From: Terriglobia bacterium
GTDB taxonomy: Bacteria > Acidobacteriota > Terriglobia > Bryobacterales > Bryobacteraceae
NCBI GenBank assembly: GCA_025350105.1
Contig: JANXYJ010000137.1
Span: 1 to 64,000 of the forward strand
Reading direction: 5' to 3'
DNA length: 64,000 nucleotides
Position 1 is the stretch's first letter. Each line of letters opens with the position of its first letter. Both the position numbers and the translations under genes were made by a program. Of this stretch, positions 7,667-10,477 are shown piece after piece. The notes under the pieces were generated by a model. The model saw nothing but the letters and a program-made list of their open reading frames with translations. It ran no database searches and was not told the origin of the DNA.

Positions 7667-8050
7667 TCAGCCCACTTTCACAAATTCCACATGGCGATTG
7701 TTGGCTTTGCCCTCGGGGGTCGTATTGTTGTCGAATCGGATCACCAGTCTAACGCTGAATGGACCAGGTGGCGGGCTGGCCCAGCTATTGAATCGTAAAC
7801 TTTCGCAGGACCGCGCCGATGCGGTGAAGAATCGGGCATGGGGATTGACGCTGGCCGGCTGAGCGCGAAGGGATTCGGCGCTAGTAAACCGAATCGCGGG
7901 AGTCGTACATGTAGTTGTGGGCAACGCCATTGGGATAAACGAGCGATTGCACTTGGTTGGTGGTATCAAGGGTGTAGTCGGAGGTTCCTCCGTTGCGATT
8001 GTCGGTTACAGCCGAAAGGCGAGCGCCGCCATGATGAAATGGGAACGTGG
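7667..8050 (-). pseudogene. RHS/YD-repeat remnant
   Basis: On the minus strand the frame from about 8050 to the TAG at 7881 reads GGARLSAVTDNRNGGTSDY, then TLDTTNQVQSLVYPNGVAHN and YMYDSRDSV. YPNGV...YMYDSRD is the core of an RHS/YD repeat. The frame has no start and stops abruptly, so this is a fragment. In a second minus-strand frame, 7667-7880 continues as coding-like sequence ending FDNNTTPEGKANNRHVEFVKVG-type residues and a TGA; it may be the tail of the same or another secreted protein after a frameshift. This stretch of about 430 bases holds no intact gene. Confidence 0.6.
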
Positions 8051-8089: not shown

Positions 8090-8515
8090 TTAGTTTAAAA
8101 GGCTCTGATTTTCCTTCACCAAGACATCGATTTCCCCAAGTCTGACAACCTGATACTCGGGTTCAAACCCTGGGGGCCGGGGCGTTCGGTACGTCAGTTC
8201 CAGCTGCGTTGGGCTTAGCCATTTCATCGCCACACCTTGGCTGTTGCGTTCCTGTGGTTTATCAAAGAAAACCAAAACTTCGTCCGAAACCAAAACTTCG
8301 TACGAACCGGGCGAAAATTCTTTCCGGGCGCCCAGTTCCACTGTCGTTTTCATAGATCCCATGCCGAACCAGCCTGTAGCGATGGTTCGCTCGATGGCGA
8401 CGTTCTTCCCATCAGGAGATAGGACCTCAGTCGGCTTCGGCCGCAGGGCATAATACATAGTGACGACAAGGCAAACACAAACCCCACCGGCGCGAAGGAT
8501 CGGTTTACTTTTCAG
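8090..8515 (-). CDS. small membrane-anchored cassette protein, copy A (CTG start)
   Basis: About 141 residues when started at CTG 8515: LKSKPILRAGGVCVCLVV is a membrane anchor, followed by an extracytoplasmic domain containing SPDGKN and WLSPTQLELTYRTP and ending GEIDVLVKEN. The first ATG (8458) would delete the anchor. The CTG overlaps the TGA of the upstream lipoprotein gene and has AGGAGG 9 bases before it; no ATG, GTG or TTG lies between the upstream in-frame stop and the anchor. The paralogue at 9289-9684 shows the same arrangement. The SPDG...W...LELTY pattern resembles DUF5412-type proteins, which I suggest only tentatively. Function unknown. Confidence 0.65.
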   Translation of the reverse strand: MKSKPILRAGGVCVCLVVTMYYALRPKPTEVLSPDGKNVAIERTIATGWFGMGSMKTTVELGARKEFSPGSYEVLVSDEVLVFFDKPQERNSQGVAMKWLSPTQLELTYRTPRPPGFEPEYQVVRLGEIDVLVKENQSLLN

Positions 8516-8925
8516 CGAGGTGTCCCTCCTTTAGGAGCTTCGACGGGACTGCTTACCGAACGCTTTCGCACGGAAATATTTACACCATAGCATTTTGCGG
8601 CCTGAAGGCCGGCAGAGTAATTAGATCGGCCGCCGCCATAGGTCAGTTCCAATTGGGTTGGTGATATCCACTTTAGTCCCACCGGCCCAGAATCCCCAGA
8701 GCCGATATGTAAAATGACGCGTTCCACCCGTGAATCCGATGTCGACTTCAGTGATACAGTGGTAACCCCGAATCCAGTAAGGGTGCTACCCGCATAGGCA
8801 TAGGCGTGGGCTACGAAGCGTCCATCTGGGGACACCGAATCCGCGGACCAAGAATAGTCCCTCCGACATCCAGTTAGGACGAAAAGCATTGCTAGGTTTA
8901 TCAGAAATACCGGGGCCCGGAGCAT
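8512..8925 (-). CDS. small lipoprotein of the duplicated cassette, copy A
   Basis: A 137-residue protein with a lipoprotein signal (FLINLAMLFVLTGC, Cys at about residue 20). The mature part shows SPDGRFVAHAYAYAG, TTVSLKST and GLKWISPTQLELTYGGG, the same pattern as the adjacent gene, so the two are probably ancient paralogues. GGAGG lies about 12 bases before the ATG. The stop codon overlaps the proposed CTG start of the next gene, implying coupled translation. About 1.18 kb away is a close paralogue (9681-10103). DUF5412-like by impression; location probably outer- or inner-membrane lipoprotein facing the periplasm. Confidence 0.7.
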   Translation of the reverse strand: MLRAPVFLINLAMLFVLTGCRRDYSWSADSVSPDGRFVAHAYAYAGSTLTGFGVTTVSLKSTSDSRVERVILHIGSGDSGPVGLKWISPTQLELTYGGGRSNYSAGLQAAKCYGVNISVRKRSVSSPVEAPKGGTPR

Positions 8926-9027
8926 GAGTGCCGTAGTCCTCCACTATTGATGGTCGCGAAACACATTACATGCTTACTATTTTGGAACATTGCGTTCGAT
9001 TCTTTTGCGAGCTGTAGCCACTCACGG

Positions 9028-9258
9028 TCACTTCGGCGGGACAATCGGGATATTTACGTAGGAGACCTCAACGTCTCCTTTCCGGAATAACTGGACTGAT
9101 ATCCCACCTGGGTCGATAGGCTCTCCTACGCAGGATACGACCAAGTGATGGGGCGTTTCCCACTGGGCAGTTAAGCAATCGCCACCGGACCTAAAGATCG
9201 GCTTTTCCGAATAGAAAGCATGCCTGAGCTGCCTCGGAGTAAATAAATGGTCTTCCAT
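9028..9258 (-). CDS. third cassette gene, copy A (possibly truncated at the N-terminus)
   Basis: A 76-residue frame. Residues from about 27 on (DCLTAQWETPHHLVVSCVG ... KGDVEVSYVNIP) match the frameshifted sequence at 10179-10409. The W-x-T/S-P...L-x-V pattern echoes the WLSPTQLELTY core of the neighbouring genes, so this may be a third paralogue. Its N-terminus (MEDHLFTPRQ...) has no signal peptide, whereas the counterpart begins with one, so copy A may have lost its original 5' end. No strong ribosome-binding site was seen. It may or may not be expressed. Confidence 0.45.
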   Translation of the reverse strand: MEDHLFTPRQLRHAFYSEKPIFRSGGDCLTAQWETPHHLVVSCVGEPIDPGGISVQLFRKGDVEVSYVNIPIVPPK

Positions 9259-9288
9259 AAGTACAAAATATTGATCGAAGTTCAGCGC

Positions 9289-9684
9289 CTACTTAGTAGG
9301 TGGTCCCAGATTTTCCTTCACCAAGACATCGATTTCCCCAAATCTGACAACCTGATACTCGGGTTCAAACCCTGGGGGCCGGGGCGTTCGGTACGTCAGT
9401 TCCAGCTGCGTTGGGCTTAGCCACTTCATCTCCACGCCTTGTGGTCTATTAAAGAAAACCAAAACCTCGAACGAATTGGACAAAAATGCTGTTGGGTCCC
9501 CCAGTTTCACCGTCGTTTCAATAGATCCCATGCCGAACCAACCTGTGGCAGAGGTTCGCTCGATGGCGATGTTCTTCCCGTCCGGAGACAGCGCCTCAGT
9601 GGGTCGTGGTCTCAAGGCGTAGTACATAACTACGCCCAGGCATACACAAATCCCAACGGCGCGAAGGATCGGTTTACTCTTCAG
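9289..9684 (-). CDS. small membrane-anchored cassette protein, copy B (CTG start)
   Basis: About 131 residues from CTG 9684: LKSKPILRAVGICVCLGVV anchor, then SPDGKNIAIERT, WLSPTQLELTYRTP and GEIDVLVKEN. It is the paralogue of 8090-8515. The 3' parts are nearly identical in DNA (about 115 bases at 9309-9425 differ from 8108-8224 at about two places), while the middle differs by substitutions and indels. AGGAGG lies 9 bases before the CTG, which overlaps the TGA of the upstream lipoprotein gene exactly as in copy A. A longer frame exists upstream to 9759 but lies inside the lipoprotein gene. Function unknown. Confidence 0.65.
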   Translation of the reverse strand: MKSKPILRAVGICVCLGVVMYYALRPRPTEALSPDGKNIAIERTSATGWFGMGSIETTVKLGDPTAFLSNSFEVLVFFNRPQGVEMKWLSPTQLELTYRTPRPPGFEPEYQVVRFGEIDVLVKENLGPPTK

Positions 9685-10103
9685 CGAGGCATACCTCCTA
9701 TGGGAGCCGCAGGGCCGCTTACTGAACGTTCTCGCACAAAAATATCTACGCCATGACATTTTGCGACCTGAAGGTCGGGCGGAGTAGGAGATCGGCGGTC
9801 ATAAGTCAGTTGCAATTGAGTTGGTGATATCCATTTTAATTCCACCTTCCCCCCGGAATTCGAAGCGCTGAGATCTAAGATGTCGCTGTCGGCCCATGAA
9901 TGCGATGTCGATTTCAGTGACACATTCGTAAACTGGCGCCCACCACCAATCCCGCCGTTTGGATAAGTGTAGGCGTGGGCAATAAAGCGTCCATCCGGGG
10001 ACGGTAAATCCGCGGACCAAGTATCGCTCGGCGCACATCCGGATAGGACGAAAAGCATCGCGAGGTTTATCACAAATGCCGGAGCCCGCATCATGAGTGC
10101 CAT
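9681..10103 (-). CDS. small lipoprotein of the duplicated cassette, copy B
   Basis: A 140-residue lipoprotein (lipobox LFVLSGC, Cys near residue 23) with SPDGRFIAHAYTYPNG, NVSLKST and LKWISPTQLQLTYDRR. It is the paralogue of 8512-8925. The start could be ATG 10103 (GGAG 4 bases upstream) or ATG 10094, which aligns with the start of copy A. It is followed with overlap by the membrane-anchored gene. Inferred exported and lipid-anchored; role unknown. Confidence 0.7.
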   Translation of the reverse strand: MALMMRAPAFVINLAMLFVLSGCAPSDTWSADLPSPDGRFIAHAYTYPNGGIGGGRQFTNVSLKSTSHSWADSDILDLSASNSGGKVELKWISPTQLQLTYDRRSPTPPDLQVAKCHGVDIFVRERSVSGPAAPIGGMPR

Positions 10104-10178
10104 AGTTCTCCACTATTGACGCCTACTATTTTAAACATTGCGTTCGATTCTTTTGCGAGCTGTAGCCACTCACTGTCA

Positions 10179-10409
10179 CTACCGCTGGATAATCGGGATA
10201 TTTACGTAGAAGATCTCAACGTCTCCTTTCCGGAATAACCGGGCATCTTATATCATCGAGGCTAAGCAGCCCTCCTACGCAGGATACGACCAAGTGATGG
10301 GGCGTTTCCCACTGGGCAGTTAAGCAATCTTCAGCGGCTGATCCTGTGCGGCGGCTACGCCTCCGAACGTGCTTATGGCGACCCATGTAAGCACGGAGCT
10401 TCGCATCAT
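10179..10409 (-). pseudogene. third cassette gene, copy B, frameshifted
   Basis: ATG-ATG at 10409 opens a frame reading MMRSSVLTWVAISTFGG plus VAAAQDQP, a good signal peptide, but it stops after about 30 codons. The body (DCLTAQWETPHHLVVSCVG) continues in another frame, which is disrupted again before the VNIP end. Relative to 9028-9258 there are at least two frame changes. This explains most of the 374-base gap between 10104 and 10477; the remaining bases before the S55 peptidase gene show nothing clear. Confidence 0.65.
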
Positions 10410-10477
10410 AGCGGCTCCCATTTGCATATATAGAGTCTAGCGAAATAGAACCACCGGCGAACCGCTACAATGATGTC

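Follow-up and report, generated by a model that had tools for sequence, protein, structure and literature searches.

The duplicated unit and its genes

The window (the whole stretch of 64,000 nt that was analysed) carries on its minus strand, at about 8090-10443, two direct copies of a unit of about 1.17 kb, one after the other, with a copy-to-copy spacing of about 1,150-1,200 nt and a G+C content of 50-54%, compared with 56-62% in the flanks. Each unit contains a gene for a lipoprotein and a gene for a membrane-anchored paralogue, the two sharing a 4-base CTGA overlap at the lipoprotein stop. In copy 1 these are lipoprotein 1 (9684-10103, minus strand; lipobox LSGC, SPDG...WISPTQLQLTY core, family HMM E 8e-49) and inner-membrane-anchored paralogue 1 (9292-9687, minus strand; family HMM E 2.5e-39), which has an N-terminal hydrophobic segment; in copy 2 they are lipoprotein 2 (8515-8925, minus strand; lipobox LTGC, E 3e-43) and inner-membrane-anchored paralogue 2 (8093-8518, minus strand; E 1e-39). 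Both membrane-anchored paralogues probably use a CTG start codon, since a perfect AGGAGG lies 9 nt upstream of the CTG in both copies. The lipoproteins, with their L-[ST]-G-C lipoboxes, are 61% identical to each other and the membrane-anchored forms 79-81%. Moreover, a search within the source genome relates the lipoprotein to the membrane-anchored protein (E 1e-9), which, together with the lipoboxes and the hydrophobic N-terminus, bears out the preliminary description's view that each copy encodes one protein of either kind and that the two have a common origin. Judging from these signals, the proteins are likely to be exported and anchored. The two membrane forms cluster together in a tree of the family, which is poorly resolved and does not tell when lipoprotein and membrane forms diverged.

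Over aligned columns the two copies are 77% identical, in a mosaic pattern: the core of a third gene and the 3' end of the membrane-protein gene form blocks of 93-98% identity, and the blocks of the lipoprotein gene region range from 53 to 87%. The high-similarity blocks seem to mark recombination between the unit copies, as has been described for esaG arrays of the type VII system (PMC9484751). Between copies, dN/dS is 0.53 for the lipoprotein and 0.32 for the membrane protein, values below 1 that are the pattern expected of coding genes.

The claim of a tandemly duplicated three-gene cassette thus stands for the duplication and for two of the genes, and fails for the third, which is disrupted in copy 1 and, in copy 2, reduced in length. 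In copy 1 (10190-10420, minus strand) it is a pseudogene whose signal peptide and core lie in different frames and which has another shift of 1 nt; copy 2 (9028-9258, minus strand) retains a probably decayed ORF of 76 aa, without a signal peptide and related to the C-terminal half of the family. Its core, open in copy 2, reads QWETPHHLVVSC and resembles the W-x-[ST]P-x-L half of the family, and the SPDG motif is absent from the ORF. The core outscores 1998 of 2000 shuffled sequences with the family profile and all 2000 with a DUF5412-like profile, and hhalign gives the ORF E values of 0.0096 and 0.0013, respectively. The suspicion that the third protein might also be a relative is therefore supported by the shared half and by the shuffles, and weakened by the missing SPDG motif and the faintness of the relation; the gene is probably a decayed distant family member. 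In place of the 'up to six relatives' first proposed, we find four intact ones plus the decayed third genes.

Downstream of the array lies a worn RHS/YD-repeat fragment (7884-8020, minus strand). The adjoining RHS fragment of the preliminary description is thereby confirmed, although its match to PF05593 (E 0.0014, 19.4 bits) falls below the Pfam cut-off of 22. RHS repeats above threshold occur in the source genome on another contig only.

The window proteins match no family in Pfam or NCBIfam, and no relatives of theirs were found among viral contigs and phages. A link to DUF5412 had been suggested, and at the level of profiles it holds: the window family shares the SPDG core with DUF5412, and hhalign identifies it as homologous to a DUF5412-like set (96.7%, E 4e-10). 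At the level of the Pfam model it does not, as no window protein matches PF17428 (cut-off 25 bits), for which one relative (L008) scores 26.8 bits and the lipoprotein of locus L049, discussed below, 23.2 bits. DUF5412 is not named in the literature that we searched. An AlphaFold2 model of lipoprotein 1 (pLDDT 78) is a beta-sandwich similar to the blades of beta-propellers (S9 peptidases; 87 residues aligned with an rmsd of 3.8 and a VIA Z of 6.5), a Z below the level counted as telling, so that the likeness says little about function; profile matches in the PDB cover only the SPDG stretch, of about 16-20 residues, of WD40/propeller proteins.

Relatives behind an RHS toxin domain

The family is sparse, with members in a handful of genomes of the class and in one Acidiferrales MAG. 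A search that started from the lipoprotein returned seven homologous loci, in five of which the lipoprotein gene comes immediately after one and the same RHS C-terminal domain; this domain follows the RHS core intact in two genomes (G133, G339) and is broken up in three (G409, G292, G114). A search with the toxin domain alone gave ten toxin loci, nine at E<1e-9 and one tail at E 0.006, adding four further clear loci and the tail to those already known. A family member stands next to the toxin in nine of the ten, including genomes G704, G785, G592 and G666, where it comes right after the toxin domain. In the tenth (L059, genome G718) a worn toxin has a TM-anchored SPDG protein behind it, which reaches only E 1.1 with the family HMM. 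One locus (L056) has two family members downstream of the toxin; the second one in G592 lies further downstream and is cut by the end of the stretch.

The junctions are tight: of the eight loci with both ends known, six have a toxin gene and a putative immunity gene that share 13-16 nt, and in the other two these genes are separated by 11 and 25 nt. An immunity-type position, right after a variable C-terminal toxin domain, is seen in L019 (Rhs_assc_core E 6e-12), L041 and L054-L056. The preliminary description had likened the locus to immunity-gene arrays and had called for a survey of other genomes for association with RHS or other toxins; in the survey, homologues do co-occur with RHS toxin domains, and in nine other genomes they stand directly behind one, so that the likeness is well supported. 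Counting against an immunity reading, two lipoprotein loci (L022, L042) and three DUF5412-like singles (L008, L030, L031) have no adjacent toxin. Some of these relatives sit alone among housekeeping genes (L008, L030, L042), as would fit orphans and also other roles. No counterpart of the window's membrane-anchored paralogue was seen beside the toxin in other genomes.

Two of these neighbourhoods have features of their own. In G133, the toxin-lipoprotein pair is followed (L019, 3978-6622) by another RHS tip, whose C-terminal domain is a different one, and then by a protein of 378 aa that is likely to have a signal peptide; the locus reads as stacked alternative RHS tips, each with its own likely immunity gene. 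In two genomes (loci L042 and L048), a gene for an SPDG-type or related exported protein lies between argG-like and argH-like genes; the site is the same and the proteins are very different.

The toxin domain and its likely site of action

The toxin domain of the homologous loci is modelled as an all-alpha fold of seven helices (AlphaFold2, pLDDT 82, pTM 0.81) and carries a [GA]NYV[FY]G...AAAG signature; none of the 87 chains of solved structures aligned to the model reached Z>=5. Ntox44 (PF15607), described as all-alpha in the accessible text of Zhang et al., 2012 (PMC3482391), is the only Pfam toxin family to respond, with E values from 0.0019 to 0.44 that are all below cut-off; the best match, at E 0.0019, reaches 19 of the 24 bits that the cut-off demands. 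Among the Ntox44 motifs (DxK, GNxxxG, DxxxD), the domain has [GA]NYV[FY]G and LDAQ, and DxxxD is not clear. Comparison with four canonical Ntox44 domains by hhalign gave a weak alignment on the [GA]NYV[FY]G motif (E 0.063). We therefore call the domain Ntox44-like and regard its membership in Ntox44 as uncertain.

Independent support for the toxin-immunity link comes from another acidobacterium (L049), in which a canonical Ntox44 domain (E 1e-11) is closely followed by a DUF5412-like SPDG lipoprotein that our family profile finds at E 4e-5. A further acidobacterial locus (L050) encodes at 920-1498 a 192-aa lipoprotein of another kind, with no Pfam match, whose gene overlaps the preceding canonical Ntox44 RHS gene; it is a candidate for a further immunity family. 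On plasmids of Pantoea, Enterobacter and Serratia (L066, L067, L068), the Ntox44 gene overlaps the gene of a protein with an N-terminal anchor; in the Serratia case both are read as a single fused ORF. These plasmid neighbours form a separate family, with a conserved WLYITEY...YRYxL...FTNSAFFY pattern and no homology to the window family detectable by hhalign (0.2%). The Enterobacterales loci and the homologous loci of the window family are nevertheless alike in the all-alpha toxin, the [GA]N-[YF]-x-[FY]-G motif and the anchored neighbour encoded by an overlapping gene.

Immunity proteins sit where their toxin acts. Every immunity candidate that we observed, from at least three sequence families, is either a lipoprotein or anchored at its N-terminus, which makes the envelope the most likely place of action of the toxin. 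Anchored and apparently exported neighbours of Ntox44, here and on Enterobacterales plasmids, are a direct hint in that direction. For Ntox44-type toxins this suggests the cell envelope as site of action, contrary to the RNase or nuclease label that they commonly bear (PMC12165300, PMC9635880); the accessible part of Zhang et al., 2012 (PMC3482391) gives no immunity partner for Ntox44. More broadly, and only tentatively, the window family and the DUF5412-like lipoproteins could form one hitherto unrecognised superfamily of envelope-anchored immunity proteins to Ntox44-type toxins, which would then act in the envelope (on the membrane or the wall, for instance) and not as cytoplasmic RNases.

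A probable orphan immunity array

The likely explanation of the locus is an array of the homogeneous polyimmunity type that has become an orphan; its genes would belong to an exported immunity family not recognised before, and it would shield the cell from the toxins of neighbours. Its four intact members are tandem paralogues of one immunity type, as assigned from gene linkage, in the same orientation, with small spacing and with no toxin gene between them or in the window. Neither tblastn nor HMM searches found a toxin remnant inside the window, and a search of the source assembly (96% complete, 206 contigs, so that a toxin gene could be absent from it) did not find the toxin domain of the homologous loci. 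The array is called an orphan because the source genome lacks such a toxin and has only a worn RHS scrap beside the array.

The contention that no system of this architecture had been described proved wrong. Homogeneous polyimmunity loci were described by Zhang et al., 2012 (PMC3482391), and as far as the accessible text of that paper goes, the array resembles them in its same-strand tandem paralogues of a single immunity type, small spacing and lack of an intervening toxin, and differs from them in that its immunity family lies outside Pfam and NCBIfam and its unit combines a lipoprotein with a membrane anchor. Orphan arrays in the T6SS clusters of Vibrio cholerae likewise keep immunity genes without the toxin, there after displacement of the effector (PMC5361080); those arrays belong to T6SS delivery, whereas the window has an RHS remnant and no displacing effector pair was seen. 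Tandem esaG/tsaI arrays are a further known case, and the tandem esaG and tipC genes of the type VII system share with our paralogues the blocks of high similarity, but they belong to Gram-positive hosts and a different secretion system and have no established relation to the window family (PMC9484751).

In intact loci elsewhere, the immunity protein would be made together with an RHS protein that ends in the all-alpha Ntox44-like domain. Neighbouring cells would deliver this domain into the cell envelope, where the immunity proteins, in a lipoprotein set and an inner-membrane set, would bind and block it. In the source genome the toxin would have been lost, leaving the RHS scrap, and the array, enlarged as its unit was duplicated in tandem and the copies recombined, would guard against the toxins of other strains. 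We infer the binding, the neutralisation, the envelope as site of action and the protective role of the orphan array.

A less favourable reading is that the locus is the decaying remnant of an RHS toxin-immunity locus that has lost its toxin, with immunity genes that drift and have no present function. The state of the third gene in both copies, the RHS fragment in pieces, the lack of a toxin in the source genome and the lack of any family match in the 20 other genomes of the same genus that were searched all fit such decay. We nevertheless judge it improbable: four genes are still open over about 1.6 kb, with the dN/dS between copies of 0.32-0.53 noted above, and the ribosome-binding sites are preserved in both copies. 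Comparison with genomes of the same genus yielded no clean empty site, the gene order around an S55 peptidase being different. That the genes encode surface lipoproteins or antigens diversifying independently of toxins, with RHS adjacency by chance, would suit the relatives found alone among housekeeping genes, and is very unlikely given that one specific RHS C-terminal domain is linked to the family in 9-10 genomes, with overlapping genes, which is not chance. The related idea of a stockpile of surface antigens found no supporting evidence and was dropped.

As an orphan immunity array, the locus would give a likely role to a family previously without one and would extend polyimmunity arrays to the Acidobacteriota, abundant soil bacteria in which contact-dependent competition has been little studied.

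Elsewhere in the window, positions 264-2111 hold several tandem arrays with periods of 147, 158, 57, 33, 24 and 23 nt; their repeats are related to each other, rich in G+C and composed of CTGGCGACCGGAGCTACCGGGGA-like units, and the arrays lie upstream of a truA-like gene.
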